This document shows positions 36,361 to 52,811 of a stretch of 64,000 nt of DNA, piece by piece. Under the pieces are notes generated by a model. That model saw only the letters and a program-made list of their open reading frames with translations, had not been told where the DNA came from and searched no databases. Both the position numbers and the translations under genes were made by a program. Positions within the stretch are counted from its first letter, which is position 1. Each line of letters starts with the position of its first letter. The stretch lies in NCBI RefSeq assembly GCF_030643805.1, contig NZ_CP094656.1, positions 3,224,001 through 3,288,000 of the forward strand. Direction: 5' to 3'. The stretch comes from Alkalihalobacillus sp. AL-G. GTDB lineage: Bacteria; Bacillota; Bacilli; Bacillales; Fictibacillaceae.

Positions 36361-36381
36361 GTATATCGTATCACGACATAC
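36361..36381 (-). promoter_or_regulatory. PadR operator/promoter
   Basis: GTATATCGT-ATC-ACGACATAC is a 21-bp dyad with one mismatch. It overlaps a possible -10 (TACGAT) in the promoter of the PadR gene; TTGTAT lies 18 bp upstream as a weak -35. Confidence 0.55.
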
Positions 36382-37046: not shown

Positions 37047-37193
37047 ACTTCGTACCCCTTTCCCTAATAGGTACATCATACTCCTTTCATCAATATTTAG
37101 GTTATAGATATCTAAGAACAATCCATCTAGTCATTAACACAACTTCTTTCCAGTGAATATTGTAAAAAAGAACTACTACAGGGAGAGGTTGCT

Positions 37194-38606: not shown

Positions 38607-38611
38607 CATCG

Positions 38612-38658
38612 TTACAACCCTGATTCCAACAATAAAGTTTCAGTAATCAGGGTTGTAA
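38612..38658. terminator. Strong bidirectional terminator
   Basis: Perfect 14-bp stem TTACAACCCTGATT / AATCAGGGTTGTAA between the LysM-GH18 gene and the convergent holin gene, serving the end of the tail cluster as well. Confidence 0.75.
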
Positions 38659-38708
38659 TATTTTATTGACATTCATTCGTCAACCTAATTTTAGTTGATG
38701 TAACTATA

Positions 38709-38957
38709 TCAACTCGTTTTATTTTTCCTTAGTAGAACCTTTGAGCTGGAATAGAATCCTGAAGCGGATAATCCGAGCATCAGTCCGAATAGTATTCCTG
38801 TTTTCAGTTGCTGTGGATATACATATATGATACTGATCGATAAACCGAAAATCACAGCAACAAGAGAGCTGTATTTCTTCGGCAGCCCCATCTGCTTCAT
38901 CCATTCCGTTAGTCCCGTAATTAATGGAATTAATGCTACCTCAGAAATATCCATCAT
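38709..38957 (-). CDS. Phage-type holin
   Basis: An 82-residue protein with two membrane helices (PLITGLTEWMKQMG; YSSLVAVIFGLSISIIYVYP; TGILFGLMLGLSASGFYS) and a basic C-terminal tail, the pattern of small holins of Bacillus phages. ATG 38957 with GGGAGGAG upstream, overlapping the XhlA gene by 4 bp. Last gene of the tail cluster. In tailocins a holin is used to release particles by lysis, which fits here. Confidence 0.8.
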   Translation of the reverse strand: MMDISEVALIPLITGLTEWMKQMGLPKKYSSLVAVIFGLSISIIYVYPQQLKTGILFGLMLGLSASGFYSSSKVLLRKNKTS

Positions 38958-39307
38958 GATACTCCTCCCTCTTTGACAAGAAAAACCAAGCCATAGATTG
39001 CTAGAATCACCCATGGGATAAGGGAACTGATCACGGAAGCATAGAACTGTTTACGTGTCTCTCTTTTCTCACGTTCCTGTTCCTCAATTTTCATTAACGC
39101 ACGATCCGCTCGTTCCAATGCTGTTTCAGCAATGTCTAACGCTTCTCGGCTTCGATTATCCGCTTCCTTCAATGAAGCACCCAGTATATTCAGCTTTTCC
39201 TCGATCCGTCCCATACCTACATTCAGTTCATCTATGATTCTAACCAATTCCTTGTGCGCGTCATACATTTCTCTTAACGGTATATGGACACCGTTACTGT
39301 TTGACAT
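38954..39307 (-). CDS. XhlA-like hemolysin/holin partner
   Basis: A 117-residue protein with a long coiled coil (residues 10-80, ...ELNVGMGRIEEKLNILGASLKEADNRSREALDIAETALERADRAL) and one C-terminal membrane helix (SLIPWVILAIYGLVFLV). XhlA of PBSX has this shape and acts with holin XhlB in lysis. ATG 39307 chosen for the GGGGTG box. Confidence 0.8.
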   Translation of the reverse strand: MSNSNGVHIPLREMYDAHKELVRIIDELNVGMGRIEEKLNILGASLKEADNRSREALDIAETALERADRALMKIEEQEREKRETRKQFYASVISSLIPWVILAIYGLVFLVKEGGVS

Positions 39308-39345
39308 GGTCATTCACCCCTATCTATTTCTAAAAATAAGAGAAA

Positions 39346-39374
39346 GAGAGCACAAATAGGGACTGCGCTCTCTA
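39346..39374 (-). terminator. Terminator after GH18-like tip gene
   Basis: AGAGAGC / GCTCTCT stem with 15-nt loop and TTCTCTTATTTTT on the minus strand. It overlaps the last codons of the tip-protein gene, so the holin pair would depend on read-through or a separate promoter. Confidence 0.5.
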
Positions 39375-42332
39375 AAACAATTCGTTTCTTGCTGCCGGTA
39401 AATATACAAACAACTTCGGATCCTCCTGCCCCATCGTCCACATCGCTACGCCTTTGCAACCATATTTGTTGATTTCAGCCGAAGTCGTAATAAATCCGGT
39501 AATATCACTGTTCCAGGCTACGGAATATCCTTCTGCATCCCCGATATAAAGTTGTCGGAACCAGATCCCGGCATCCATCAGCTGAACACGGACGTTTTTC
39601 CTCCCCTGCCAACTTGTATGTGTTGCGAGAGGGAGGTTCTGATAATCCTGGTCAAACCGTTCAGGGTCAAAATTCACTTCAGTATCCTCACTCACATTCA
39701 AACCTGTGTATTTAAGGTATCCGAATTCATCATATCCGACGGTTCTTTCAACTTCGCCATACCCATACGATTGCCCATCGATTTCGACCCTCAGCTTTTC
39801 CATCGGCTCATATCTATCGACTGATGATAGCGACAACCGATAGCATCGTAATTGACCGTTATCCACATATACTCCGTAATTCCCGAAATTCCTCATTTTA
39901 TCAGTTGGCATTGTATACTCTAGATACTTCCAACCATTTACATAGCCATAAATCTTTCCATTCAGGACTACTGCTTTGACCGTCGTTTTTTTACCCTTCA
40001 AGTCGACAATTTCCTGTGTCATCCAGCTATAATCTACTTCGATCGGTGATTCTCCACTCTTCTCATAGACGAGGGTCATTTTGTTTTGACGATAGTCCAA
40101 AAGAAACAAATAACCATCATCTGTATACCCTTCTTGCTGAGATAAAAGCCGGATACCTCCGACCGGGTAGGCATCACTCGTACTGATCCGGATATCCGCT
40201 TCAATCTGGAGATTTGTTGAGAATGATTTATTCAAGATCATCTGGCTCCAAGACGATCGTCCGTCCCCATATACGTAGGTGCCAGCGCCATCCGTCTGGA
40301 CCTTCCATGTCCCTTTACTCATTCCGGTATCGTAATAACCGTCGATACACACATAACCACCGTCCGATTCACGGTGCTCTATCGTTCCAGATCCTCGGCT
40401 AAAGTTGTTTTGTTTCGCTTCCGCATAATAACTCGTTCTTCCAGCTAGATCGACAGCCTCCGGTTTTCCTAGATAATGGGAAAATAAATCCTCCCAGATC
40501 AGTGCAGGGCGAGGTTCCCGCCGGATCACTTCTCCTGTCATCGTCATCTTTGCCGGAAAAAGCCCCTGTGTTTTCATAACTGTACCTTCCTCTGTAACAA
40601 TGCCTCGCTTTTGAAAGGGGGTGAGGTACGTATTGTAATCGATCATCCCGCCGTTGAAGTTACTGTCAAATTCCTCGCAAATGATGAACCCGGCAATGTA
40701 TCCACTTCCAGGCTGGATCTTGATCGTGTTCGTTTGCAAAAAATCGAAGGAGCCACAGTCATAATAATGGTAGGCATCAACCATGTAAGGATACCAATCA
40801 GGAAGATTCGGGCCGCCTATTGTCAATGGTTCTCCGTTAATGACCGCGTGAACGGTATCATTCGTATAGAACGGAAAATAGGCAATCGCAATCAAACGGT
40901 AGGATCCGCCCGCTGATAGATTGAAAGAAAAGGAGATCTCACCGTCTTCACCTGTTGAACCAGCCTCCCGAACACAAGCAGCTAGATTTGTATCATAATA
41001 ATATCTTGCTTTTCCAACTTGATAAGAAGTGAAAGTTTTCTCTTGATTTAACACGTCGGTTCCGATTGAAAAAGATCCATTAGAAGATACGTTCCCTGTC
41101 ATCACCGCATCCGTAGTACTGAGGACACGTCGAATCCCATTGATCGTCGGCTTCTGTTTTTTGAAATAGCTCGTAAAAAACGTATCCCCGCCATATGCAC
41201 TTTGGTTAACCGTCGAGCTTCCATCGAAAACGACCGGATCCGCATATTTGGGATCGAATCGGTCGTATAGGTGCAAATAGGTTCGCTGGTAGTTGGATGC
41301 AGGATCATTGAAGCCGGTAAACGGAAGCCAGCTCTGGTTTTTCCAATGAAACGTGCCATCTGCCAGCCTTTCACCATCGTTATGGATGTACATTCCATTT
41401 TGCCATTCCATCAACTGCTTGTACGTTACTGCTCGACCAGGCTGCTGGTTATCAAGTCCCCAGCGCCTTCCATAGCCTGCGTTTCCGATGAAAGTTTTCG
41501 AGTTAGGAAGAGATTGGTCAACATGCAGCAGTACGTTTTGCAGCCACCAAATAGGTGTAGATGGACCCGGAGCTGAATAGGCATAGGTGAAATCATAGGT
41601 CATCAGCTGAAATTCATCAATCGCCTGTTCTCCATTCATATCTTTGGCCGCTGCCATCGTCTTATAATCATGCCACGCATAATAATAAGGATTCATGTCT
41701 CCAGTCATCGCATAGAGATTGACCCGCAGTTCAAGCCCCAGAGGAAGACATACCTCATTTTTCACCCGTTCTAACAGCAATTGGTATTTCGTATAATCAG
41801 GGACGTCATCATCCCGCGTCCCGACTTTTTCGAAATCACTTTCAATCCCGCGGATCGGGTACCCTGCCTCAAGATAAAGCTCTGCAATCTTTTTCAGTTG
41901 TCGAAGGTAATTGTCCTGAGGAAGACTTCCATCAGCCAACGGGCTGTTGTCAAGCAATGCATTCACTTTTGCACTTCCGAAACAGACTGCTTGAATCGAC
42001 CATTTCACATCAGGATAGATTTCCATTTGATATTGGAGGCTTATCGGAACCCAACGGTCAATCGCGGTTTCATCCAGATTCAACACTAGGTCAGACTCTG
42101 ACTTACGGTAATCGTAAATGGTCCCTTCAGCAGTGACACCGAACTCATGCATCCCTATCGCATAAATCTTGTCATGATATTTATCAAACATCTGAACATA
42201 GGTTTGCTGACTTTCACTCCAGCTTTGCATTGCATCTGGATCGATCACTTTCCATGTTCCATTGATTTTCTGCATATATTGATCGAATTGATAGGTTGAT
42301 GGAGCATTCATCGACCAGCTCATGAATTTCAT
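39372..42332 (-). CDS. Large tail-tip protein with GH18-like domain
   Basis: A 986-residue protein without signal peptide. Residues about 1-370 look like a GH18-type barrel (RGIESDFEKVG, LRVNLYAMTGDMNPYYYAWHDY, IDEFQLMTYDFTYAYSAPGPSTP, FIGNAGYGRRWG). The middle (about 400-600) holds a carbohydrate-binding-like beta domain, and residues about 640-830 a LamG/DUF1080-like jelly roll. The C-terminal end (about 870-986) has YSVAWNSDITGFITTSAEINKYGCKGVAMWTMGQED, again barrel-like. The start ATG 42332 overlaps the previous stop. It occupies the place of receptor-binding or cell-wall-degrading tip proteins in siphophage tails and may choose the target. Confidence 0.72.
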   Translation of the reverse strand: MKFMSWSMNAPSTYQFDQYMQKINGTWKVIDPDAMQSWSESQQTYVQMFDKYHDKIYAIGMHEFGVTAEGTIYDYRKSESDLVLNLDETAIDRWVPISLQYQMEIYPDVKWSIQAVCFGSAKVNALLDNSPLADGSLPQDNYLRQLKKIAELYLEAGYPIRGIESDFEKVGTRDDDVPDYTKYQLLLERVKNEVCLPLGLELRVNLYAMTGDMNPYYYAWHDYKTMAAAKDMNGEQAIDEFQLMTYDFTYAYSAPGPSTPIWWLQNVLLHVDQSLPNSKTFIGNAGYGRRWGLDNQQPGRAVTYKQLMEWQNGMYIHNDGERLADGTFHWKNQSWLPFTGFNDPASNYQRTYLHLYDRFDPKYADPVVFDGSSTVNQSAYGGDTFFTSYFKKQKPTINGIRRVLSTTDAVMTGNVSSNGSFSIGTDVLNQEKTFTSYQVGKARYYYDTNLAACVREAGSTGEDGEISFSFNLSAGGSYRLIAIAYFPFYTNDTVHAVINGEPLTIGGPNLPDWYPYMVDAYHYYDCGSFDFLQTNTIKIQPGSGYIAGFIICEEFDSNFNGGMIDYNTYLTPFQKRGIVTEEGTVMKTQGLFPAKMTMTGEVIRREPRPALIWEDLFSHYLGKPEAVDLAGRTSYYAEAKQNNFSRGSGTIEHRESDGGYVCIDGYYDTGMSKGTWKVQTDGAGTYVYGDGRSSWSQMILNKSFSTNLQIEADIRISTSDAYPVGGIRLLSQQEGYTDDGYLFLLDYRQNKMTLVYEKSGESPIEVDYSWMTQEIVDLKGKKTTVKAVVLNGKIYGYVNGWKYLEYTMPTDKMRNFGNYGVYVDNGQLRCYRLSLSSVDRYEPMEKLRVEIDGQSYGYGEVERTVGYDEFGYLKYTGLNVSEDTEVNFDPERFDQDYQNLPLATHTSWQGRKNVRVQLMDAGIWFRQLYIGDAEGYSVAWNSDITGFITTSAEINKYGCKGVAMWTMGQEDPKLFVYLPAARNELF

Positions 42333-43189
42333 TACATTTTCGACCTCCCTTCTGACCATTGTGTGAATTCTGCTAGACCCCAGTAACCGATTCCGGTATC
42401 CTTCATATAGGAAACAGGCTTCTGTCCTTCCCATTCATGGGTCAACGACTCTGTCACTAGTTTATAAAACTCGACCCGAAAGCGTATGGAACCTGATGGA
42501 AGGGCAAAGAAACGCTGCTTATCAATCTGGAAGGTCTGACCACCGATGTTCATCTCGTATTGTCCAAGTGATTTCCTCTTCCCGTTGATTGAAGCATTAC
42601 GTATCGAGGACATCAGCCTTATTTCATCCCCTGTTTCGCCCCCTGGAAAGAAAAACTCTCTTGTATACCTGAAGTGCAACGGGTGATTTTCACCTGTAAG
42701 CTCATTGATCTCACCATATTGTTGTTCCTCTTTCGGTAAAAGAGTTCCATAATTGGTGGAAATCTTCAGCAAATCGTAATCGTCCTTCGGGTATAATGTG
42801 AGATCCAAGCCTGTCGTCAACAGCTCTTTCGTATAATCTTCATGAAAGACGTTCGGGACCACCACAACATCATGGCCCCTCCCGCAAATATTGAAAAATC
42901 GATTTCTCACGTTTGGATATACTTCAGGCGGTTCGCCCTCATACACGTCGTTACCTTGTGCATTGTCCGTCTCATCAATCGAAAACGTAAGCTGTTGTAA
43001 GATGTCTTCATTGGAAGGACGATACGCTGTGACTGTCGGTCCTCCCTGAACTTGAATGTCTGATAGGTGTACAGTCCCATCAATATCCACCGCTAAAAAA
43101 TCGACTGTTACTTCTTTTACTTTTTTGTCTGATTCAGGATAAACACTGTGAAAGTACCGAGTCCATTGATTATTTGTAATCATGTCCAT
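42332..43189 (-). CDS. Predicted tail-tip/baseplate protein
   Basis: A 285-residue protein of unknown family, beta-rich, without signal peptide. Its N-terminal part (DFLAVDIDGTVHLSDIQVQGG) resembles the 64-residue protein encoded just before (DFGGEVNITDLILQGG), pointing to a local duplication. It overlaps both neighbours by one base. By position between the Tal-like and GH18-like genes it should be a tip or baseplate component. Confidence 0.55.
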   Translation of the reverse strand: MDMITNNQWTRYFHSVYPESDKKVKEVTVDFLAVDIDGTVHLSDIQVQGGPTVTAYRPSNEDILQQLTFSIDETDNAQGNDVYEGEPPEVYPNVRNRFFNICGRGHDVVVVPNVFHEDYTKELLTTGLDLTLYPKDDYDLLKISTNYGTLLPKEEQQYGEINELTGENHPLHFRYTREFFFPGGETGDEIRLMSSIRNASINGKRKSLGQYEMNIGGQTFQIDKQRFFALPSGSIRFRVEFYKLVTESLTHEWEGQKPVSYMKDTGIGYWGLAEFTQWSEGRSKM

Positions 43190-43383
43190 CACCCATCAAT
43201 CGACCACCGAATTTCCGAAGGATGCAGGGTCCAATTCGTTGCAATTTGACCACCCTGCAATATCAAGTCAGTAATGTTCACTTCACCGCCGAAATCTTGT
43301 GCAATCAGTTCCACCTCGAGTGAAGCGACTGTTTTTGCCATGTTCACCTGAATCGCTGAATTTTTAAAATCAAACATGATCAT
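43189..43383 (-). CDS. Small tail-cluster protein
   Basis: A 64-residue protein starting at ATG 43383 with GGGGGAT upstream. It shares the VNITDLILQGGQIATNWTLHPSEI pattern with the N-terminal part of the next gene product (HLSDIQVQGG...YRPSNEDI). Unknown function; size and place suggest a tip accessory protein. Confidence 0.55.
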   Translation of the reverse strand: MIMFDFKNSAIQVNMAKTVASLEVELIAQDFGGEVNITDLILQGGQIATNWTLHPSEIRWSIDG

Positions 43384-43400
43384 TGCTGTAAATCCCCCTT

Positions 43401-44876
43401 TTAGGCTAATGGGATATACTTGGTTTCTTTGGACCCATCCTTATAGGTGATCGTGACATTGACACCCACTTTTCCATTCGGTCCTTTATTAAGATTTTCA
43501 GTAGCAGCACGGAAGCTCAGTGAATAACTGTCACGATGGGATGGGTAGACGGTTTGCGTCAATGTCTTGGTTGTGTCATATTGACCGACGGCTTTGAAGG
43601 AAGCTGGGCCACTATACCCTTCCGAGCTGTCAATATCCCATCCGTTGTTCGTCCAATAGGCATACCCGTCATCCGCTCGTGAATTCAATAAATAATTGGA
43701 TACCATCAGATCAAGCATATCTTGTTGATTCAATGTATCCTCCGATTGAAAGATTTCCGTCGTTTCAGTTACTGATTTCAAGAGATCTTCAAGGCCCGGC
43801 TGTACAGTTGATAACTCTAATTCCGTATTCCACGGTTCTAATACGTCATAACTCCATTTGACGATTTGTGTTTTCAGGTTAATCTCCATTTCTTCATCAT
43901 GGACCATCACCATCGCACCAAGATCAAAAGCTTCATGCTCAAGCCCGGTCATGTTTGACAAATCTGCAGCCGTTGCACGATATGAGGCTCGCGGTACAGA
44001 TAGCTTCGATAGGATCGACTCAGCTTTTTCTTTTAAATGGAACGGGTTAGTGAACCGTCCGTCTTTAAACGAACGTACCCTTACCTGTTTCGTATATTGA
44101 TAGTTTTCAATATATGGAACCCCATCATTGGCATCCTCAATCGTCATATCATTTTTCCCGTAAGGATATAATCGAGTTATCAAATCCTGTGTATCGTAGG
44201 ATGCTTTGATCGATTTGAGGTTTTTCCGGTATATGATGCCGATTCCTGGGTCCGGGAAGCTGTTTTCAATCAGGCTCACTTTAAGTTCCTTTGAATCGAA
44301 AATCAGCGTCCCACCCCAGATGTCTGCAACTTCCCGAAGCAGCTTCAAACGATTGGTGACCCCTGATTCGATAACGAGGTTCCGGTCCGTATCCACTTCA
44401 ATCGTCCCGACGTTCCAGCCTGTCCCAGCTAAAATATCTTGGATTGGAATATCAGGTGTCACGTCCATCCATTGTGCAGATGATAATGGATCTGTATATT
44501 GAAGGTCATACCAAAGCGCTTCTGCATAGACGGCCAAAAGTTTTGTTCCGTCATCTGCTCTTGACTTGGATACCATTCGGATTACATACTGCTTCTCAAC
44601 GATTTGCACAATATTTTCATTGACCAAGTAACTCGTTTTCGGATCATCATATGGGACAGTGAAATCCATCGTATCTGCCCCATTGATCTCTTGGTTCAAT
44701 GTCATTTCGCTGACGTTTTCAATGACTGCTACGACCTGATGATCTTGACTCAAGATGACTGGACGAGCACCGGGTAGACGTGTAAAAAACGTTGTGCTCG
44801 CCGGCTTAACAAAGGAATTATATTGAATGGCACCAAGATCGTTGAAGGTTGCATTTCCTAGATCGTTATAGAGCAT
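43401..44876 (-). CDS. Tail-associated (Tal-like) protein
   Basis: A 491-residue protein of the prophage endopeptidase-tail/minor structural family (Tal, SPP1 gp21 type). VIENVSEMTLNQEINGADTMDFTVPYDDPKTSYLVNENIVQIVEKQYVIRMVSKSR is the typical hub-domain start, and NRLKLLREVADIWGGTLIFDSKELKVSL is also characteristic. The C-terminal 110 residues (GYAYWTNNGWDIDSSEGYSG...) form a carbohydrate-binding-like beta domain. It follows Dit after one extra gene. Expected role: tip hub that contacts the cell. Confidence 0.82.
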   Translation of the reverse strand: MLYNDLGNATFNDLGAIQYNSFVKPASTTFFTRLPGARPVILSQDHQVVAVIENVSEMTLNQEINGADTMDFTVPYDDPKTSYLVNENIVQIVEKQYVIRMVSKSRADDGTKLLAVYAEALWYDLQYTDPLSSAQWMDVTPDIPIQDILAGTGWNVGTIEVDTDRNLVIESGVTNRLKLLREVADIWGGTLIFDSKELKVSLIENSFPDPGIGIIYRKNLKSIKASYDTQDLITRLYPYGKNDMTIEDANDGVPYIENYQYTKQVRVRSFKDGRFTNPFHLKEKAESILSKLSVPRASYRATAADLSNMTGLEHEAFDLGAMVMVHDEEMEINLKTQIVKWSYDVLEPWNTELELSTVQPGLEDLLKSVTETTEIFQSEDTLNQQDMLDLMVSNYLLNSRADDGYAYWTNNGWDIDSSEGYSGPASFKAVGQYDTTKTLTQTVYPSHRDSYSLSFRAATENLNKGPNGKVGVNVTITYKDGSKETKYIPLA

Positions 44877-44883
44877 AGGCGGA

Positions 44884-45798
44884 TCACGCCCTTCTCATCC
44901 ATACAGATGCATAGGAACTACGGAACAACGGCGTCCCGCTAGATGGATAGGAAGCTGGTAATGCTCCATACGAGTAGGTTGCCCGGTACGCTGCAGCAGC
45001 CGCACCAACAAAGGAGTCGTCCATACCAAGTGATATTGCATTTTCTCTGTTGATCCCGGAAATTTGCGGTCCATCATCAGAATTTCGAACCAGCCAGTAA
45101 AGACCTCGTTCGAGCGTCAAGTCGATGGCAGTGCTTTGGAGTCCTGCAGCATCTGTAGGTACTTCCCCTGCATCGAGTAACAGCTCACCAGGGAAGTTCG
45201 CTCCGTTATCTTTGTAGATTCCAAGCCTTGCGCTCGTCCCGGCAGCACTCGTCGTATCTACATTGATGGCGATTGCATCGTAAGTAGTCGTTTCCGTCAC
45301 AGGAAAAGGAAATGCATCGAATAGATTTGCTGCAATCAAGACATTTGTCGCAAGAGCTGCACAATTTAAGCAGTGTGTTCTCCAGTAGCTGGGAAAATGA
45401 AGTACTGGAGAAAGTCCTGGCAATGAATCTGAAAATTGATCAGCTGCAATGATGTGTTCCATATCGACGGTGATTGTATCACTCGGTGCTTGCGACTCAT
45501 GAAAAGTGATTACTCCATATGCAGGCTGGATCACATATTCACTTGCGGGAACTTCTTCTCCATTCCGATAAACGATCGGGGCTGGACTCGCCAGCCAGTT
45601 CCGAATCGAGCCCTCATAAATGCGGTAACGAGCTGCAGGATCCTCCTGGTCCGTAACCGGATTCAACGGGTGATTTGCCGCTGACTGTTTTTTCATACCC
45701 AAGATTTCCTCTATTTTATTGATCGAGTGCTGAAGACCTGAAATGTGTGCAGAAAGGATATCCACACTTTGTAAATCTTGATAAGGTGTTTTTGACAT
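44884..45798 (-). CDS. Tail-cluster structural protein, unknown
   Basis: A 304-residue protein. A short N-terminal coiled coil (DILSAHISGLQHSINKIEEIL) is followed by beta-rich, Ala/Thr/Ser-rich domains. IRNWLASPAPIVYRNGEEVPASEYVIQPAYGVITF is a repeat-like beta segment also found in fibre-type proteins, and the region around 180-260 looks like a jelly roll. Might be an adhesin or fibre. No clear family. Confidence 0.55.
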   Translation of the reverse strand: MSKTPYQDLQSVDILSAHISGLQHSINKIEEILGMKKQSAANHPLNPVTDQEDPAARYRIYEGSIRNWLASPAPIVYRNGEEVPASEYVIQPAYGVITFHESQAPSDTITVDMEHIIAADQFSDSLPGLSPVLHFPSYWRTHCLNCAALATNVLIAANLFDAFPFPVTETTTYDAIAINVDTTSAAGTSARLGIYKDNGANFPGELLLDAGEVPTDAAGLQSTAIDLTLERGLYWLVRNSDDGPQISGINRENAISLGMDDSFVGAAAAAYRATYSYGALPASYPSSGTPLFRSSYASVWMRRA

Positions 45799-45811
45799 AC
45801 TTACTTCCCTC

Positions 45812-46579
45812 CTAAATCCAACGGCTTCGACATGTTATTTTAAAAAAGGTGACCGTCGATGCCCCTGTCGGTGATATATCCAGCTGGTTACTTCCAGGAA
45901 CCGTGATCGGAAAGTCTAAATTATTGATATCGTTCATTGCACTGACGACAGTACCATCTGCTCTATTGATTTTCGCGGTCAAGAGATTTGAATCGAGAAT
46001 CAATGTGTCCCCGCCATTCAGTGTGCCGAGGAAGGAAAGATGACTGTCATTCAGCGAGATGCTGATTCGATCGGAAGGTGCATTAGTTCCCTGCAACTCA
46101 ATCAACGGGTAGGAGTCGACGGTCCCTTGTCGATCAAATGAATAAGCTCCAGCTCCTGTGTACGTAAAAACATCATCGCTTACCGCATAAGCGAACGGGT
46201 CCGGAACCAGAAAGGTCAATTCTCCTTTTCCTAACGTCAAGGTTTGTGCAAGCTCCGAATCCTTCGATAGGACAGCAACATACTGCTTATCCGGTTCATC
46301 ATCAAAAATCAGTGGTTGAAGGCTTGCTTCAGGATTTAGCCAATCCGCAATGGTGTGCCTTTTCTCTTGTACACCAACCAAATCAGGGTCATCAAAAGCG
46401 ATTGACACTTTGATTTCTAATGGTTCATATTGATATCCGAAGTAATGTGCGCCATGCCGTTCAGGAATCGTCATCATCTTGGTTGTCACACTCGGTAGTA
46501 AAGGCCGATCAACATTAAGCGTCCATACTCCGAGCTCGAGGCTATTTCTGCCATTGAACGTAAATCCGAAATCTTTCAT
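45812..46579 (-). CDS. Distal tail protein (Dit)
   Basis: A 255-residue siphovirus-type Dit/phage tail family protein (SPP1 gp19.1 relatives). Key features are KDFGFTFNGRNSLELGVWTLNVDRPLLP at the N-terminus, RHGAHYFGYQYEPLEIKVSIAF and the belt/galectin-like C-terminal half. Dit forms the hexameric hub at the end of the tail tube. ATG 46579 chosen for GGGGGTG at the right distance. It directly follows the tape-measure gene. Confidence 0.85.
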   Translation of the reverse strand: MKDFGFTFNGRNSLELGVWTLNVDRPLLPSVTTKMMTIPERHGAHYFGYQYEPLEIKVSIAFDDPDLVGVQEKRHTIADWLNPEASLQPLIFDDEPDKQYVAVLSKDSELAQTLTLGKGELTFLVPDPFAYAVSDDVFTYTGAGAYSFDRQGTVDSYPLIELQGTNAPSDRISISLNDSHLSFLGTLNGGDTLILDSNLLTAKINRADGTVVSAMNDINNLDFPITVPGSNQLDISPTGASTVTFFKITCRSRWI

Positions 46580-46580
46580 C

Positions 46581-48356
46581 CTACGCATTCACCCCCGATG
46601 CACGAAGTGATCGCCGTTGCTGTTGATACAGCCTCTGCGAGATCCGATCGATATCCGCCTCTTCACGAACGACCATCTCACTAATATAAAAGTTGTTGTT
46701 GATGCCGCCACTTCCACCAGCACGATTACTTTGCATCAAACCTTGATCCAATACAGGAGCCTTCAGCATATGGTTCATCGATGCTTGGACTTTCGGCAAG
46801 CCTCTGCCGATTGAATCCCGAATCGGCCCGGCAAAATCGAGCTTATCCAAATCTGATAAAGGTCCTACTTTAGCAGGCGAAAACGGTAAATAGTCGCGTA
46901 TTTTAGAAGCTAAATTACGAACTGTACTCAGAACACTGCTGAACGCATTGGTGATCCCGTTCTTTATCTGATCGATCAATCCTCTACCTGCTGCATAAAA
47001 ACGTCCTCCAAGACCTGTTATCCAACTAAGGATGCTGTTGAACCTTCCGACTATACTATCTTTGATGCTCGCAAGCTTTGAAAGGACCGTCGTTTTCACC
47101 CGATTCCAAATCGAGGTGAACCGACTGATTATGCCAGTTCCGAACGAGGACACCCTGCTGATGACCGAAGATACCCATCCCGAGATGCTCTGCCAGATTC
47201 TTGACAGCCAACCACCGACAGTGCGGAAAACCGCGGACCACATGCCTCTGAACTTTGATAACAAAAAGCCTGCCAGCTTTCCGACCAGTCCGAGCACCTT
47301 TCCGATTCCCCAAATTTGGATGAGATTCCAAATCAGCTTCCAGGCATTTGCAAGGATCGACTTGACGCTTTCCCATAAACGCGACCAATTACCCGTTAAC
47401 AGGCTGGCAAATAACGTGATGACTCCCTGGATGATGCCGATGGCCCCAGTGATGACATTCTTGATGTTGTTCCATGTCTGTACGATGATCGCTTTTACGA
47501 GCGGCCATGCCCATATCATCAATTGCACGATTCCATTTACGATCGGTTGCAATACTGTCCAGATCACATTCCAAACGTTCAGGAACGCCTGCTTTAACAT
47601 TGGCCATGTCGCCATCCACCACGCCTTGATCTGATTGAATTGGTTCATAAAAAAGGTAATGAACGCTTGGATTCCAGGTTTGACGACGGCAACAATGTTC
47701 ATGAATCCTGTCGAAATCGCGTTCCATAGCTGCATCATTGCATTTCGGAACGTTTCAGACTTGTTCCAGGCAATCGCAAAGGCGATGGCTAGTGCTGCTA
47801 TGCCTGCAATGATCAATCCGACAGGACTTAGCAGGAATGCCATCGCAGTGCTTAACCCACTGATCAATAAAGTCAGGGATCCGACGGCCGAGATGATTGG
47901 ACCGATTGCAATAGCAAAAAGTCCGATTCCAATGATGATTTTTTGTAGCACCGGTGATAGGTTTTGGAACCATGTCGCCACCGCCTTGATTTTGGCAGCA
48001 ATGATCGGCAACACTTGATTCGCAAGGTTTAAAAGCACGATACCGATCGGTGCGATTGCTTTTTGAAGGGCTAGAAGATTGGTTTGGAATTGCTTATATG
48101 CGGTTTGACCCTGTTGCGTCGATTTTGTTGCTTGTATGACCGCTGCCCCGAATGCAAGTATCGGTACGGCGAACCCAGTCATTTTTTCTGAAAAACCGAA
48201 AATCTTTTCACCGGTTTCCCTCGAGGTATTACCAAATTCCTTCATTCTCTTGGATGTTTCGCTCATCTTGTTGCCCAATAGTTGCAATCTATCTCCCATT
48301 GCCTTGAACCGTTTGGATTTCTGAAGTAACGTAATTAAATTTTTCAAATTGCTCAC
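46581..48356 (-). CDS. Tape measure protein
   Basis: A 591-residue protein with N-terminal coiled coil, hydrophobic helices (residues 60-200) and many Trp-rich amphipathic repeats (WNAISTGFMNIV, WWMATWPMLKQAFLNVWNVIW, WSRLWESVKSI), the usual composition of a siphotail tape measure. GTG start overlaps the stop of the frameshift chaperone product by two bases. At the known ratio of about 0.15 nm per residue it would set a tail of roughly 90 nm, short for a siphophage; that length is inference. Confidence 0.9.
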   Translation of the reverse strand: MSNLKNLITLLQKSKRFKAMGDRLQLLGNKMSETSKRMKEFGNTSRETGEKIFGFSEKMTGFAVPILAFGAAVIQATKSTQQGQTAYKQFQTNLLALQKAIAPIGIVLLNLANQVLPIIAAKIKAVATWFQNLSPVLQKIIIGIGLFAIAIGPIISAVGSLTLLISGLSTAMAFLLSPVGLIIAGIAALAIAFAIAWNKSETFRNAMMQLWNAISTGFMNIVAVVKPGIQAFITFFMNQFNQIKAWWMATWPMLKQAFLNVWNVIWTVLQPIVNGIVQLMIWAWPLVKAIIVQTWNNIKNVITGAIGIIQGVITLFASLLTGNWSRLWESVKSILANAWKLIWNLIQIWGIGKVLGLVGKLAGFLLSKFRGMWSAVFRTVGGWLSRIWQSISGWVSSVISRVSSFGTGIISRFTSIWNRVKTTVLSKLASIKDSIVGRFNSILSWITGLGGRFYAAGRGLIDQIKNGITNAFSSVLSTVRNLASKIRDYLPFSPAKVGPLSDLDKLDFAGPIRDSIGRGLPKVQASMNHMLKAPVLDQGLMQSNRAGGSGGINNNFYISEMVVREEADIDRISQRLYQQQRRSLRASGVNA

Positions 48357-48909
48357 CTTCTTCCTAATCGATCTTTTGAGCTTACATTCGATTTGCGTTT
48401 CGCCTCTTTGTCCATTTCCTTTTCTTCCGTTTCGCGGATTTTAAAATAGGCAACCCACTCACTCAACTCACTCGAGCTGATCCGATCCAACAGCTCAGAA
48501 ACAGTACACCCCAAGCGCTCCGCGAGGTCGAAATAAAACCTGCGCTCGGGGTGTTTTTTTAGTTTTTTACTTTATCCTCAATTGCTCCATCATCTAATCC
48601 AGACAAACGCATCGCAACCCGCGTGATCCGTTCCAATGCCTTTCCACTCTTGGCATTGATCGCATCACGGTCTTCTCTTCCGAAGATCCGTTCACCTGTA
48701 TTACGATCGTAGGTAGAAGCAATGATCAAATCCGGATAAATCGAGTCGAGGTCGACGTTTCCCTTTTTATCGATTGCTTTACTCAATATCCGGTTTCGGG
48801 CGGAACCTGAAAGTCCTCTTACATCCACCTCAGCATCCCATTCTGGAATTGTTACGAGTTCTGAATCGATGTCTTTCTTATTTAGAATTTGGTCACGTAG
48901 ATTAGCCAT
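48353..48909 (-). CDS. Tail assembly chaperone, -1 frameshift product (gpGT type)
   Basis: The 116-residue upstream frame (48559-48909) ends in GTA AAA AAC TAA. A -1 slip on the heptamer A AAA AAC enters a frame open for 68 more codons, ending at TGA 48353-48355. The added part reads RFYFDLAERLGCTVSELLDRISSSELSEWVAYFKI, a pattern I know from the second tail-chaperone ORF of Gram-positive siphophages, with a charged end (KEMDKEAKRKSN). The fusion is about 185 residues. Such short and fused pairs load the tape measure for tube assembly in many tailed phages. The frame has no good start of its own. Confidence 0.8.
48559..48909 (-). CDS. Tail assembly chaperone, unshifted product (gpG type)
   Basis: A 116-residue acidic, mainly helical protein. 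SELVTIPEWDAEVDVRGLSGSARNRILSKAID and RVAMRLSGLDDGAIEDK are typical of XkdN-like/gpG tail chaperones. It starts at the end of the second tail-tube gene (8-bp overlap) and terminates exactly after the slippery heptamer. Confidence 0.85.
   Translation of the reverse strand: MANLRDQILNKKDIDSELVTIPEWDAEVDVRGLSGSARNRILSKAIDKKGNVDLDSIYPDLIIASTYDRNTGERIFGREDRDAINAKSGKALERITRVAMRLSGLDDGAIEDKVKN
48562..48568 (-). other. Programmed -1 frameshift slippery heptamer
   Basis: A AAA AAC in zero-frame register (minus strand), followed at once by TAA, the classic X XXY YYZ form. A second A-run with C lies seven bases further. The -1 frame encodes the conserved second half of the chaperone, while the zero frame stops. 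Confidence 0.8.
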
Positions 48910-49537
48910 TTGTCATCATCCTGCCTTCCATATCAGTAGTACCTTCAAATTCAACATCTTCTTCAACCATTCCATCCACCTCAGCACTTGCTTCATCACT
49001 TGAAATGAGTGCCCAAACCCTTAAATCCGGCTCAGCTTTTGCTGTATCGGAATAAAAGTCGATGACAAATGTCTGGTTGTTCATGATCGCATTCTGAAAG
49101 ATTGAGTTCGTTTCATACCAATTGGTCAAGCTCCCGGTCACATCCCTCAACCCTTGACTTCTACGGTTGTTCGGAGAGCCGAATAGCGGTACATCCTGGT
49201 TGTCGGCCTCTAGCGTATACGTATATTCATGTGCTTCTGCAGCCTTTGACATCGGTAAATACTCCCCGGATAAGCGAACCTGAGCCGTTGTTCCATTTGG
49301 AAATTCGACAGATCCATTCAATCGATTCAATGTATAGACGGTTGGATCGACTACCTGCCACGTAACACCATCTGAGCTTTCTTCAACTGTGATGGCAGCT
49401 TCCCGTGCGAGGACACGCTTTTGTGGATCGTTAATTTGATAGATTGTGTTTGTCATGTTTGCGGTTGTTGATTCATTAGTAAAGGCTACAGGTGAACCTG
49501 AAACGTTCACCTGAGCTCGATAGCCTGCTGTTGCCAT
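48902..49537 (-). CDS. Tail-tube-like protein (second paralogue)
   Basis: A 211-residue beta-rich protein without signal peptide. Its second half shares the pattern LEADNQDVPLFGSPNNRRSQGLRDVTGSLTNWYETNSIFQNAI...VDFYSD with the smaller tube protein upstream (MESDNQDISTFGSDHVKRLQGLKDTTFELSGFYNADDTNGQMAI). Residues about 50-110 hold an extra Ig/BIg2-like part. Start ATG 49537 after GGGGGGAG. Possibly a decorated tube subunit or tail-terminal ring. Confidence 0.72.
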   Translation of the reverse strand: MATAGYRAQVNVSGSPVAFTNESTTANMTNTIYQINDPQKRVLAREAAITVEESSDGVTWQVVDPTVYTLNRLNGSVEFPNGTTAQVRLSGEYLPMSKAAEAHEYTYTLEADNQDVPLFGSPNNRRSQGLRDVTGSLTNWYETNSIFQNAIMNNQTFVIDFYSDTAKAEPDLRVWALISSDEASAEVDGMVEEDVEFEGTTDMEGRMMTNG

Positions 49538-49550
49538 TAGCACTCCCCCC

Positions 49551-49946
49551 TTATACGAGTGTTACTGCATTGGTTCCTTCAAGTTCAATAGAAACCTCTA
49601 CCACACCATCAACTGCTGCGGAAACTTCATAGCTTGCAACTTTAACTTCCTGTTGGAAACCTGTTGTTCCATCAGGTAGGAACTGTACATATAGTGCGGT
49701 GTTATCCACTAGTGCACTACGGATGGCCATTTGACCATTTGTATCATCTGCGTTATAGAAGCCAGATAATTCAAAAGTTGTATCCTTCAATCCTTGAAGC
49801 CTTTTCACGTGATCCGATCCGAATGTCGAAATATCTTGGTTATCACTTTCCATCGGCATCGTTGCCTCGTTCAAGTCTTGTACAACGTTAAACGCTGCAC
49901 CATCCACTGAAACTTTTACTGTTGCATTCTTTCCTGAAATCGCCAT
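49551..49946 (-). CDS. Major tail-tube protein
   Basis: A 131-residue beta protein with the phage tail-tube pattern: MESDNQDISTFGSDHVKRLQGLKDTTFELSGFYNADD and a C-terminal VSIELEGTNAVTLV. First structural gene of the tail operon. RBS GAGGAGAG precedes ATG 49946. In non-contractile tails such subunits stack as hexamers to form the tube. No sheath gene lies next to it. The 220-bp upstream gap should hold the late promoter; no strong sigma-A promoter is seen there, which fits activation by the regulator at 51878-52348. Confidence 0.8.
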   Translation of the reverse strand: MAISGKNATVKVSVDGAAFNVVQDLNEATMPMESDNQDISTFGSDHVKRLQGLKDTTFELSGFYNADDTNGQMAIRSALVDNTALYVQFLPDGTTGFQQEVKVASYEVSAAVDGVVEVSIELEGTNAVTLV

Positions 49947-50166
49947 GAAAATCTCTCCTCTTAAATGTTTTTTCCGGTCTTATTCAACCGGTAAGTCCAC
50001 TATAAGACAGAATCAAGCTACCAAACTCTCAACTATGTCATATAAAACTCTTATAAAACTTCACAAGAATAAAACGTTCCTTTCGATATACTGGCCACAA
50101 ATGTAAATATGGTAAAATTATGCTAAAGTAGTGTCAAGCCTTAAAATGGACTTAGGAGGTTTTAGA

Positions 50167-50637
50167 GTGAGTAAAAAACTATTAAAGGAACTCGATCAAT
50201 ACATCGATGACTCCGAACACATAGTTGATACAACCTATGGGTTTTATGAAGGGAAACATGGAATCATTGCGGCTACTTCAACGCGGCTTATCTATTTATC
50301 AAAGGGAATGTTTTCAGGATTACGTATCGTCGATATGCCATATTCAAAAATAAAATCCATCGAATACAACATAAAAAGATCGGATGGAATTCTTGAGATT
50401 TTCGGCCTTGGTGAAGAAAGAGAGTTTACAAGTATTTACGGGTCTTACTTGGACAATCTACCGAAGTTCGTGAAAACGATACAAAATCAAATAAACGGTC
50501 AAGCGGGAAGCAGCTCGGGGAAAAGCAAGTCCTCAGACAAGTACACACAGCTCGAAAAAATAGCTAAACTGAAGGAAGCTGGAGTGTTGACTGAAGAAGA
50601 GTTCGAGGAAGAAAAAAGGAAATTATTGGATTTTTGA
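50167..50637 (+). CDS. Bacterial PH domain plus SHOCT protein
   Basis: A 156-residue cytoplasmic protein. Residues about 15-110 are a YvbH/bPH_9-type pleckstrin-like domain (IIAATSTRLIYLSKGMFSGLRIVDMPYSKIKSIEY); residues 125-156 form a SHOCT helix pair (YTQLEKIAKLKEAGVLTEEEFEEEKRKLL). GTG start at 50167 with TAGGAGG. It is the only plus-strand gene inside the tail cluster and has its own promoter (TATGCTAAAG region, 50121-50130). It could be a passenger or have a role with the cluster; no evidence decides. Confidence 0.82.
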   Translation: MSKKLLKELDQYIDDSEHIVDTTYGFYEGKHGIIAATSTRLIYLSKGMFSGLRIVDMPYSKIKSIEYNIKRSDGILEIFGLGEEREFTSIYGSYLDNLPKFVKTIQNQINGQAGSSSGKSKSSDKYTQLEKIAKLKEAGVLTEEEFEEEKRKLLDF

Positions 50638-50645
50638 TGAATGGA

Positions 50646-50676
50646 AGGGACTGATAAGCTACGAAACTCAGTCCCT
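50646..50676. terminator. Bidirectional terminator
   Basis: Perfect 9-bp stem AGGGACTGA / TCAGTCCCT, 13-nt loop, between the convergent PH-SHOCT and 190-residue genes. Confidence 0.65.
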
Positions 50677-50706
50677 ATTAAAATATTTGAATGAAGTTGC
50701 CTATTG

Positions 50707-51279
50707 TTAAAACGTGTTGATATTGTAAGAGCTCGGATAATAATCGACAACTGGTTCATCCAGCCAGTTGTAGTTCGAATCAATCGTATGATAATTTCCT
50801 GAGCTGTCATAATAACCTTTGATTCTCATCAGATCGAATGTACGATTACTCGTATAGTTTGAATGCGTATATCCATATCCGTATGGAATATGGACCCTTG
50901 TACCTGCTGGAAGAATTTGGCGATGTCCCAGATACATTCGATCTGGATCATATAGACGCCCTTCATATCTGAGCGTATAGGCTGACCCTCCGTGAGGATC
51001 ACAGCACCAACCGCCATAAGTACGGCAGTTGAAATCATATAGCCGATACAAGCGGTAATCATCTGGTGATTCTGCGTAGCTGTTGAACACCCTTTCTCCT
51101 GGTATGATTTCCCAACGGGTGCTTTCATACCACTGGTTCGTAGCGGCATCCCAGGTTTTAAACCTTGCCGCTCCAGTACTGCTATTAAAAGATCCATCAA
51201 TTTCAAAGAAATATTGTCCTCTTCTATCAGCCCCTCCATAATAAGATGGATCAGCTGCATGCCCTACATATACCCACAT
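50707..51279 (-). CDS. Aromatic-rich hypothetical protein of the tail cluster
   Basis: A 190-residue protein with an extreme content of Tyr, Gly, Asp and Arg and several Cys (CRTYGGWCCDPHGG). It has no signal peptide or membrane helix. The start (MWVYVGHAADPSYYGGADRRGQYFFEIDG) and end look beta-rich. It matches no family I know. It follows the Sm-like small gene by 35 bp in the early part of the cluster, before the tail genes proper. Fibre, toxin-like or spore protein are all possible; nothing decides between them. Confidence 0.6.
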   Translation of the reverse strand: MWVYVGHAADPSYYGGADRRGQYFFEIDGSFNSSTGAARFKTWDAATNQWYESTRWEIIPGERVFNSYAESPDDYRLYRLYDFNCRTYGGWCCDPHGGSAYTLRYEGRLYDPDRMYLGHRQILPAGTRVHIPYGYGYTHSNYTSNRTFDLMRIKGYYDSSGNYHTIDSNYNWLDEPVVDYYPSSYNINTF

Positions 51280-51313
51280 TTAAAGTCCCCCTCGTTACAA
51301 TTTTCTGTAATAG

Positions 51314-51493
51314 TCATTGATTCTGAACTTCAATCGCTCTCACTGCTGTAAGCGGTATGTGTTTCCCTTTCGTAGAATACTCGACATAGATGATGTTCAA
51401 AACGTCATCCACCTCGGTCAATGTGCCATAAACGTAGCTCGAATCAGTCAAGGTAACGTTTACTGTTTGGTTAAGAAAATTTGATAAACTCAT
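51314..51493 (-). CDS. Small Sm-like beta-barrel protein
   Basis: A 59-residue protein (ATG 51493, GGAGGGTA upstream). NVTLTDSSYVYGTLTEVDDVLNIIYVEYSTKGKHIPLTAVRAIEV has the five-strand spacing of Sm/DUF2642-like small barrels. Probably cotranscribed with the sigma-like gene and the 58-residue gene. Function unknown. Confidence 0.6.
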   Translation of the reverse strand: MSLSNFLNQTVNVTLTDSSYVYGTLTEVDDVLNIIYVEYSTKGKHIPLTAVRAIEVQNQ

Positions 51494-51503
51494 AATACCC
51501 TCC

Positions 51504-51680
51504 TTAGCAATCGTTGGTTTTGATAAAATACGTTTTGACGGGGCCGCATAAGTCCCTTGCACGCTCCAATTCATTCTCTATCTCGGCTTCGATCCTTATT
51601 TCTTTTTGAAGCCTCTCTTTTTTTAATGCAATGGACTCGTCTACCGACAATTGCTCTTCAACATGGAATTCCTCGTACAT
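51504..51680 (-). CDS. Small coiled-coil protein
   Basis: A 58-residue, highly charged protein with a helix rich in Glu/Lys (SIALKKERLQKEIRIEAEIENELERARDLCG). I choose ATG 51680 for GGGGGTG eight bases upstream. It ends 10 bp before the Sm-like gene starts. Unknown function, early part of the tail cluster. Confidence 0.55.
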   Translation of the reverse strand: MYEEFHVEEQLSVDESIALKKERLQKEIRIEAEIENELERARDLCGPVKTYFIKTNDC

Positions 51681-51717
51681 TTCAGTCACCCCCTTTCATT
51701 GTTATTGCAAAAGAAAA

Positions 51718-51741
51718 GCAACCCCAATGATTTGGAGTTGC
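51718..51741 (-). terminator. Terminator after sigma-like gene
   Basis: GCAACTCCAA / TTGGGGTTGC stem (one mismatch), ATCA loop, followed by TTTTCTTTT on the minus strand. Confidence 0.6.
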
Positions 51742-51757
51742 CTAATCTTGTTTTTTA

Positions 51758-51847
51758 TTGTTGGAAACGTTTGTTCTTGTTATAATGCTTATAAGGATTG
51801 TTTGGTCAGATCAGGGTGTTCCGCATTCTCGATCTGATCTTTTTTTA
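51758..51847 (+). ncRNA. Candidate short RNA between regulator and small genes
   Basis: On the plus strand, opposite to the cluster: TTGTTG (51758), exactly 17 bp, TATAAT (51781-51786), then about 50 nt and a stem AGATCAG / CTGATCT (51808-51840) with seven T. This is a complete promoter-to-terminator unit without an ORF. It lies in the gap between the sigma-like regulator and the small genes. Could be an sRNA or merely a plus-strand terminator with a fortuitous promoter. Confidence 0.35.
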
Positions 51848-51877
51848 TTTGAATCTCAGATTTGTTTCCCCTTTTTG

Positions 51878-52348
51878 TCATATATGTTTGATCCCTCCTA
51901 AACTGATCAGCAGCTTGTCCATCAATTGGTTCCGGATCACGAACAACATCTTATCACTGTAGCCGATTTTCATCGCACACTTTTCAATGCTCCAGTCGTT
52001 GAAGTAACGGTATTTTACAAACTTGTATTCAATCTCATCCAACACCTTCATACCGTCATCTATTGCTTCAATGATCAAAGAATATTCATTCGATTCTTGT
52101 TCCAGCTGTTGTGCGTAATCACCTTCCATCCTCTCCATTGCTACCGATTCTGTTGAACTGGATCTTCCATAGTTATTGAAAGATTCTTCTCGTGCTTCAT
52201 ACGTTGAGGTGGTCTTAGGAAGAATATGATCGAGCTGCTTCTTTAAATGGAGTATCCCAACCTTATAATTATTATAATTACGTAGATGGTACTCGATTCG
52301 TTTGACAAACTTTTTTCGCTCGCTCTTTGATAATTGATGATGCAACAT
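51878..52348 (-). CDS. Sigma-region-4/ArpU-like phage late activator
   Basis: A 156-residue protein. A helical N-terminal part (LSKSERKKFVKRIEYHLRNYNNYKVGILHLKKQLDHILP) is typical of ArpU/Xpf-type transcriptional regulators of phage late genes. The C-terminal HTH reads LDEIEYKFVKYRYFNDWSIEKCAMKIGYSDKMLFVIRNQLMDKL, like sigma region 4. ATG 52348 chosen for GGGGAGG upstream over an in-frame start at 52414. In PBSX the sigma-like Xpf switches on the late operon; the analogous role here is inference. Its promoter carries a LexA box. Confidence 0.8.
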   Translation of the reverse strand: MLHHQLSKSERKKFVKRIEYHLRNYNNYKVGILHLKKQLDHILPKTTSTYEAREESFNNYGRSSSTESVAMERMEGDYAQQLEQESNEYSLIIEAIDDGMKVLDEIEYKFVKYRYFNDWSIEKCAMKIGYSDKMLFVIRNQLMDKLLISLGGIKHI

Positions 52349-52396
52349 TGTCTGTTCCTCCCCATCTTGTTTTTGTTCCCATTTTGACACAATATA

Positions 52397-52418
52397 GGGA
52401 ACGTGTGTTCCCATTATA
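52397..52418 (-). promoter_or_regulatory. SOS (LexA) box and promoter of tail-cluster activator
   Basis: GGGAACGTGTGTTCCC (52397-52412) contains GAACGTGTGTTC, which agrees fully with the Bacillus LexA core GAAC-RNRY-GTTC. It is directly next to TATAAT (52413-52418, minus strand), so LexA would cover the transcription start near 52406. The -35 is weak (TTTATT). Confidence 0.8.
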
Positions 52419-52763
52419 TAAGATTTTTCGAATGAAATAAACTGTAAATTCTAATGTTCAATTTTACATGTGTTCAATAATTAGGAGAAATGTCATAGAT
52501 ATCGACGAAACAGCCGGAAAAAACATTGGCTTAAATTACCTGTAGATGGAATTAATTTGGAATAACAGTTAATAAGTCCCGACTTTGTCAACAGTTCACC
52601 TCCCTTTCTTTCAAAAAAGATGATTGAATTAAAAAAGAATATCTGTTTGTTTTACCATAATAACAACGGAAGGAAGGAAGAAACTCTGTCATTTTGTATC
52701 GTAAATATCCCGTTATTTTTCTTACAATAATCTAATAAAAATGAGCGTAAATTTATGGAAAAG
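52419..52763. other. Intergenic region upstream of the activator
   Basis: Mostly AT-rich. On the minus strand a possible 32-codon frame begins with TTG at 52591 after GGGAGGTG and ends at 52493, with a basic Phe/Arg-rich tail; the TTG coincides with a TTGACA, so the box may be a promoter instead. No other feature is seen. Confidence 0.3.
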
Positions 52764-52792
52764 AAAAAACCCGGTACATACACCAGGTTTTT
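52764..52792 (-). terminator. Terminator after amidase
   Basis: AAAACC-GGT / ACC-GGTTTT hairpin followed by TTTTCTTTTCC on the minus strand. It separates the amidase from the tail cluster. Confidence 0.65.
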
Positions 52793-52811
52793 AGAATGAA
52801 AAACGATTCGG

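Follow-up and report, generated by a model that had tools for sequence, protein, structure and literature searches.

Tailocin loci carry no head, replication or packaging genes and likely had many independent origins, as stated in the available text of PMC12090994. Those of the F (non-contractile) type are called rare: a 2024 paper, in the portion available, names the F-pyocin and the monocin alone as exceptions to the R type (PMC10811719). The Listeria monocin, according to the accessible part of its description, is an F-type tailocin of 18 genes that has a holin-lysin cassette and is SOS-induced (PMC7076858). No description of an F-type tailocin in Bacillus-like hosts was found in the literature searched, parts of texts whose coverage leaves out most subscription journals. 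Here, we describe a gene cluster of Alkalihalobacillus sp. AL-G, located in a stretch of 64,000 nucleotides (contig NZ_CP094656.1, positions 3,224,001 to 3,288,000; hereafter the window, from whose first letter all coordinates are counted) that is part of a 4.16-Mb genome represented by a single contig. Judged from its genes, this cluster is quite probably a chromosomal F-type tailocin that arose from a siphophage tail like that of Geobacillus phage GBK2, and it likely kills competitors.

A siphophage-type tail module

The tail module (38709-49946, minus strand) was siphophage-type and sheathless, and all its open reading frames (ORFs) were intact. Its gene order was that of GBK2 from the major tail protein through the holin, and the nearest phage tails found were those of Geobacillus phages. 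Features are given below with E-values for Pfam (PF) and PHROG (phrog) families and with identities to GBK2 or to related loci, which are designated by genome (G numbers); aa, amino acids.

49551-49946, minus: tail tube protein 1 (PF06199, 7e-8; phrog_1407, 5.6e-15; 59-60% identical to G458/G478)
48902-49543, minus: tail tube protein 2, a paralogue of tube protein 1 with an extra N-terminal domain (45% and 41% identical to G458 and G478)
48559-48909, minus: tail assembly chaperone G (phrog_344, 1.8e-22)
48562-48568, minus: slippery heptamer A_AAA_AAC for a -1 frameshift, in frame; the same heptamer ends the G458 chaperone
48353-48561, minus: T extension of the chaperone in the -1 frame, 69 codons, 3' of the slip site
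46581-48356, minus: tape measure protein, 591 aa (phrog_58, 3.8e-67)
45812-46588, minus: distal tail protein Dit (PF05709, 7.8e-19; phrog_33, 1.8e-43)
44884-45798, minus: fibre/receptor-binding candidate (phrog_25864, 5e-13; phrog_21562 tail protein, 6e-6)
43401-44876, minus: Tal-like tail tip, prophage endopeptidase tail family (PF06605, 1.2e-59; 62% identical to G458, 53% to GBK2)
43189-43383, minus: 64-aa tip-associated ORF, the positional counterpart of GBK2_18 by position and order
42332-43192, minus: tail tip protein, 286 aa (phrog_12827 tail protein, 5e-37; 44% identical to GBK2)
39372-42332, minus: GH18-domain minor tail protein, tip (phrog_3432, 6e-155, longer ORF; PF00704, 2.2e-7)
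38954-39313, minus: XhlA-like membrane protein (38% identical to a protein of prophage-like contig G045)
38709-38996, minus: holin (phrog_1299, 4.6e-20)

All parts named in an earlier sequence-only reading of this DNA were recovered as intact ORFs with family support, which was weak for the XhlA-like protein (phrog_689 holin, 0.0004; phrog_937 hemolysin, 0.0087); tube protein 2 lacked a good match (phrog_365 tail protein, 0.006). The same reading had proposed a pair of tube paralogues and a frameshifted chaperone, and both proposals agreed with our data: the two tube proteins were 34% identical over 126 aa, and the in-frame A_AAA_AAC (48568-48562) was observed directly before the 69-codon -1 extension. 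The structure model of tube protein 2 was poor (mean pLDDT 44.7) and was set aside. The GH18 tip, whose start is most likely 42332 and not 42434, was 45% identical to its GBK2 counterpart over about 1000 aa, and Dit was 42% identical to GBK2 Dit. In an alignment, the fibre-like protein was conserved at its N-terminus and variable at its C-terminus. Its structure model (mean pLDDT 71.1) had a single Foldseek match below E 0.001, 9jwb_Z (2e-7), which belongs to the capsid asymmetric unit of cyanophage A4, and weaker matches to tail-fibre and carbohydrate-binding domains. This weak domain resemblance would suit a receptor-binding role, with which it is compatible and of which it is not proof.

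No sheath family was present among the matches of the cluster ORFs, in agreement with the sequence-only reading. The locus has siphophage tail genes in phage order and no recognised sheath, as F-type tails do, and a contractile sheath like that of R-type tailocins and PBSX-like elements was not recognised. The cluster had been placed at 38709-52412; the tail block was found as described, and the upper boundary was revised. The cluster should extend to 53501, with an amidase at 52812-53501, because the amidase-activator order recurs in the headless loci G174, G311 and G433. Thus delimited, its release genes are the holin, the XhlA-like protein and the amidase, which form a lysis cassette.

Search for head, packaging and integration genes

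The cluster had been described as devoid of capsid, portal, terminase, integrase and replication genes. Profiles of a portal (PF04860), a capsid (PF05065) and a terminase (phrog_2) family matched nowhere in the whole 4.16-Mb genome, and they matched in 4, 4 and 11 of 14 control genomes, respectively. This genome-wide negative is limited to three families because phrog_2 is only one of several terminase families; other terminases fall in phrog_38, phrog_30251 and phrog_9. In addition, 18 probes (terminase, portal, capsid, one helicase and one integrase) were taken from six head-bearing sources (G045, GBK2, G715, G444, GR1 and JGon). None had a tblastn match at E 0.01 in 104 kb (the window with 20 kb to either side of it) or in the related loci G458, G592, G478, G174 and G198. 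The controls G715 and G532 were matched; apart from G715's own probes, this was by portal probes only, and the terminase and capsid probes are therefore less sensitive. Unrelated head types could escape such a search. Within the families and probes searched, the locus is headless, in accord with the previous description, and has none of the head, packaging and integration genes of an intact or helper-dependent prophage.

These results bear on a very unlikely explanation, that of a satellite or helper-dependent element whose tails are joined to heads from another phage. The tail genes are of siphophage kind from tube to tip, and a separate head donor is conceivable; yet the genome had no match to the three families searched (a single one each for portal, capsid and terminase), neither the replication nor the integrase probe (one each) had a match nearby, and the window has, by a weak test, no recognised tail terminator.

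Headless and head-bearing relatives

We detected 15 related loci besides the window: seven headless, five head-bearing (G045, G134, G444, G715 and G532, with portal, capsid or packaging genes) and three unclassified. G486, G587, G712 and a weak match, G093, stand outside the headless and head-bearing counts, G093 also outside the tree. The headless relatives have chromosomal neighbours and represent three further bacterial families within the host's class: G174, G311, G433 and G198 (f3), G458 and G478 (f65), and G592 (f75). The sequence-only reading had proposed looking in relatives for the same gene order without capsid genes, and these seven loci, all distant from the host, provide it. G478 and G198 lie at contig edges, but both include the side that carries the head genes in phages, with the activator directly before the tail terminator in G478 and gyrase-like genes before the tail in G198 (such gene labels, here and below, are by sequence reading).

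The nearest relatives, G458 and G478, possessed the same two tube genes in nearly the same order: activator, tail terminator, tube 1, tube 2, chaperone, tape measure, Dit, fibre, Tal, tip and GH18 tip. Identities to the window were 48% for the chaperone, 56% and 52% for the fibre and 62% and 59% for Tal, and the tip protein and GH18 tip were more distant (23-30%). In G592, a holin (PF05105) and an amidase-like ORF followed the tip, and a sigma-region-4-type regulator preceded the tail. At E <=1e-80, Tal occurred in 6 of 397 genomes of the order (own included); with the same threshold, the G174 Tal was found in 4 of 41 genomes of its family and the G198 Tal in 11 of 398 genomes of the class (own included). 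Relatives of the tape measure comprised two loci in genome contigs and six viral contigs, mostly of low identity, and a Tal scan of viral contigs gave none.

Phylogenetic analysis of Tal and Dit (IQ-TREE, 18 loci; supports from the unrooted tree) grouped the window with G458 and G478 (support 99) and G592 with the phage-type G715 and G532 (100). G174, G311 and G433 grouped with G198 (100), next to G045 (78) and to GBK2 and GR1 (100). Headless clusters therefore occupied at least three places among head-bearing ones, for which repeated head loss is the simplest reading; exchange of tails between elements may be an alternative. The tree suggests at least three separate origins of headless siphophage tails in one tail lineage, in several families of one class, and the interleaving of head-bearing and headless versions would offer a natural series for a phage tail becoming a weapon.

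Selection and decay in relatives

In G174, G311 and G433, the headless cluster occupied one site, between malic-enzyme-like and MFS-like genes. We compared G174 with G311 and with G433 for ratios of nonsynonymous to synonymous substitution (dN/dS). Eight tail genes had dN/dS of 0.00-0.18 at dS of 0.01-0.45, and the amidase and activator had dN/dS of 0.00-0.04. Values for three downstream flank genes were 0.01-0.09 (dS 0.33-0.43) and for the upstream flank gene 0.02-0.10 (dS 0.06-0.16). Values of dS varied and were smallest for the tube and chaperone genes and at the upstream end, a variation suggestive of some recombination. The observed purifying selection appears to be the pattern of a maintained host trait.

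Loss was seen as well. G291 (L091, about 15478-19022) kept the G174-type site with amidase, activator, SHOCT genes and LexA-type box, and only a fibre fragment was left of the tail. In G198, one tip gene was split into two adjacent ORFs (L054, 6925-7804), which may reflect decay or a sequencing error; the cluster, beside a gyrase-like gene, was otherwise intact.

Such losses are what a decaying prophage remnant would predict, in which head, replication and integrase genes have gone and the tail block is merely unbroken so far. Also in keeping with a remnant, the distribution is patchy, with no copy in the sampled genus, and the closest tail modules include those of phages GBK2 and GR1 and of head-bearing contig G045. 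Decay would nevertheless have had to spare the tail, activator and lysis genes, all intact in the window, while leaving no head or packaging gene that we could find; the same selective loss would have had to occur at tree-separated positions; headless clusters of one other genus are under purifying selection; and box and activator are retained. We thus consider a remnant unlikely. The preference for a domesticated particle over a prophage remnant, expressed in the sequence-only reading, is supported by the intact tail, the failure to find head genes with the families and probes searched and the headless relatives in three families.

Activator, control sequences and accessory genes

The part of the cluster upstream of the tail contained the following features.

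52812-53501, minus: endolysin-like N-acetylmuramoyl-L-alanine amidase (Amidase_3; PF01520, 2.8e-44; phrog_435 endolysin, 1.5e-52)
52399-52418, minus: P1, activator promoter, TATAAT-N2-GAACACACGTTC (-10 element and LexA-type box; same arrangement in G458 and G478)
51878-52348, minus: RinA/ArpU-like late transcription activator, 156 aa (phrog_36, 2.4e-14, and phrog_248, 1.6e-11; longer ORF)
51765-51784, minus: P2, second LexA-type promoter by sequence pattern, TATAAC-N2-GAACAAACGTTT
51716-51743, minus: terminator-like hairpin, 12 pairs with a T-rich tail, 3' of activator and P2
51504-51680, minus: 58-aa ORF by ORF reading, no function assigned
51314-51493, minus: small protein with an LSM domain, 59 aa if started at the probable ATG (PF01423, 3.5e-6, longer ORF)
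50707-51279, minus: 190-aa protein of no known family, behind the LexA-type promoter
50131-50637, plus: bacterial PH domain and SHOCT protein (bPH-SHOCT; PF14470, 9.9e-13; PF09851, 3.1e-7), divergent from the tail

The amidase was 55% identical to the amidases directly before the activator in the headless G174 and G311 and is a probable lysis enzyme of the cluster. The activator was 46-48% identical to those of G458 and G478, and its match to RinA TIGR01636 (6.8e-4) was under the family cut-off. Its start is most likely 52348, because an ATG at 52414 falls inside the -10/LexA box. Among phage records, a related activator was found at E 1e-3 in Parageobacillus phage JGon-2020a alone; there, about 3 kb beyond the activator come the genes for the small and large terminase, the portal and the major head protein. 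In the window, the activator is followed by the 58-aa ORF and then by three larger non-tail genes, LSM-like, 190-aa and divergent bPH-SHOCT, before the tail. A leader, AATGAAAGGGGGTGA, which follows the activator in the window and in G458, resembled the beginning of a terminase operon and was considered as a head-excision scar. This was rejected: the leader was found at 20 places in viral contigs before diverse genes and is best read as a strong ribosome-binding site.

The cluster had been called SOS-controlled. The bare 12-mer core GAACNNNNGTTC occurred once in 64 kb against 1.11 expected, and its count alone is uninformative because about one per window is expected by chance. A scan with a fuller LexA-type consensus at one mismatch gave sites at 52398-52411 (both strands) and 51764-51777, that is, three matches against 0.82 expected, a number attained by 7 of 100 shuffles. 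On the coding strand, each of the two sites is preceded, at a distance of 2 bases, by a TATAAT-like hexamer, a combined pattern observed nowhere else in the window. In G174, G311, G433 and G291, the box lies 2 bases after TAATAT and is directed towards a SHOCT gene; G592 has two boxes without the 2-base spacing, and G198 has no exact box and a one-letter-off site at the SHOCT gene start. Altogether, an exact LexA-type box was present in the control region of seven of the eight headless loci, window included (6/7 relatives), or of 5/6 if the near-identical trio from one genus counts as a single locus. Elsewhere in the stretches analysed, G458, G592, G311 and G433 each had one more exact box, and the head-bearing G715 and G532 had one each, outside the tail. 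The box is credible because of its promoter placement and its recurrence in relatives; these features favour the SOS claim, and the bare 12-mer, at chance level, does not.

The 190-aa protein had no Pfam, PHROG or NCBIfam match and no phage record, and was present in 2 of 397 order-level genomes, own included. The other copy (G296:C70, L099 17749-18375) lies in a 19.6-kb contig with amidase-like and holin-like ORFs and no recognised tail. SHOCT proteins divergent from the tail were also found in G174, G311, G433 and G198, as tandem paralogues in some: three in G174 (L047 18513 to L048 1233), two each in G311 and G433 and one in G198. In G433, an IS110-family transposase (PF01548, 1.4e-21; L063 6611-7846) lies between the SHOCT genes. 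A conserved orthologous partnership of bPH-SHOCT was rejected, its alignment with the G174, G311 and G198 proteins being restricted to the short SHOCT tail. The SHOCT genes are possible self-protection genes.

Such accessory genes raise the question of a tail device that does not kill and serves delivery, wall remodelling, content release by programmed lysis or a sporulation-linked task. Spore-wall GH18 enzymes are related in kind to the GH18 tip, the 190-aa and LSM proteins lie within the cluster behind a LexA-type promoter, and SHOCT genes stand beside several headless units. We find this improbable: ordinary phages, GBK2 among them, share the GH18 tip; the Pfam, PHROG and NCBIfam matches of the cluster ORFs include no recognised family of secreted effectors or cargo; and the LexA-type promoter and lysis genes agree with what the accessible text of PMC7076858 describes for known tailocins.

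Proposed mechanism and its weight

The genes suggest the following course for an F-type tailocin. LexA would repress P1 and P2, as their observed sequences suggest, and DNA damage would release both; the RinA/ArpU-like activator, by homology, would then switch on the tail operon. The tape measure of 591 aa would be loaded by the frameshifted chaperones, and a flexible tail would form from the two tube proteins. Tail length usually follows a ratio of 0.15 nm per tape-measure residue, from which roughly 90 nm is predicted. The tail end would comprise Dit, Tal, the fibre-like binding protein and the GH18 wall-degrading tip, and a head is not expected, given that the searches found no genes for one. 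The producer would be lysed by the holin, the XhlA-like protein and the amidase, and the freed tails may bind related Gram-positive walls, where the tip would open the wall and the open tube depolarise and kill the cell. If killing is confirmed, the particle would represent a new antibacterial of protein nature, its tip probably wall-degrading.

Several points weigh against this assignment. Particles, SOS induction and killing are predictions from the sequence, and the genome-wide head search spanned a single portal, a single capsid and a single terminase family. The window is without a recognised tail terminator, as are G174 and G198, by a weak profile that also failed on G715, G532, G444, G134 and JGon; a terminator is present in G458, G478 and G592 by similarity to GBK2. 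No holin was found next to G174 by similarity or by a scan for short hydrophobic ORFs, and no lysis gene was recognised next to G458 by similarity. The selection figures are those of one relative genus and not of the window's own copy. Tal was absent (E <=1e-30) from all 7 same-genus and 26 other same-family genomes, which suggests that the cluster is recent or often lost in the host, and the lost tail genes of G291 and split tip gene of G198 indicate that loss also occurs.

A broader proposal is speculative and, in our estimate, rather unlikely: Bacilli may hold recurrently evolved F-type tail devices wired unlike known tailocins, with LexA acting on the activator's TATAAT-N2-box promoter and on a second promoter for accessory genes, with two tube proteins, the second possibly capping the tail in loci that lack a recognised terminator gene, and with the 190-aa, LSM and SHOCT proteins as cargo, assembly or self-protection factors.

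Flanking regions

Upstream of the cluster lie genes that we take to be ktrA/ktrB-like (53861-55858), preceded on their 5' side by a c-di-AMP (ydaO/yuaA) riboswitch (RF00379, 56045-56198, minus strand, 100.5 bits); this is potassium-uptake control of an ordinary kind and, together with the Geobacillus phage tails as nearest phage relatives, points to a Gram-positive, Bacilli-like host. On the other side, a protein with three LysM domains and a GH18 domain (spore-wall hydrolase-like; 37194-38606, plus strand) adjoins the tail cluster with its own GH18 tip, which is probably a coincidence. As candidate attachment (att) sites, the flanks 36000-38709 and 52349-54200 shared one 14-base AT-rich direct repeat (two overlapping matches of at least 13 bases), against 0.085 shared 13-mers expected and a maximum of 3 in 200 shuffles. 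Its left copy lies inside the LysM-GH18 gene, and the repeat is not accepted as an att site. An empty site could not be demonstrated in the five stretches examined from same-genus G001, G004, G005 and G006: all four keep the ktrA/ktrB-like genes and no further cluster neighbour in the same arrangement. G005 and G006 have a LysM-GH18 homologue (33-35%) 12-14 kb from the ktrB homologue, in a different arrangement.

Comparison with known systems

Among tailocins, the locus resembles the Listeria monocin (ftb cluster) in having a headless siphophage-type tail, a holin-lysin cassette, an SOS-inducible character (predicted in the window) and a Gram-positive host, as far as the available text of PMC7076858 describes it. 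The same text relates the monocin weakly to phage A118, whereas the nearest phages of the window are GBK2-type; and unlike the monocin, the window has two tube genes, a GH18 tip and an amidase upstream of the activator, both comparisons being by description only. The F-type pyocins of Pseudomonas and rhizoviticin are likewise flexible headless tails acting as bacteriocins (PMC10811719, in the part available), and are set apart, by description, by their Gram-negative hosts. F-pyocin tails are lambda-related, as cited in the accessible portion of PMC12090994, and that of the window is GBK2-type, again by description only.

Phage GBK2 (NC_023612) has the same order, tube-chaperone-tape measure-Dit-fibre-Tal-small-tip-GH18-holin, with Tal 53% and the GH18 tip 45% identical. 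Genes for terminase, portal, capsid and replication set it apart, as do its single annotated major tail protein, against two tube genes in the window, and its tape measure of 727 aa, against 591 aa. PBSX of Bacillus subtilis is, in the consulted part of PMC9406221, also a chromosomal defective phage that kills kin; the same part lists sheath XkdK, capsid XkdG and terminase XtmB, none of which was recognised in the window. Taken together, the locus is best read as an F-type tailocin new to this lineage, of an already known kind and with unusual wiring.

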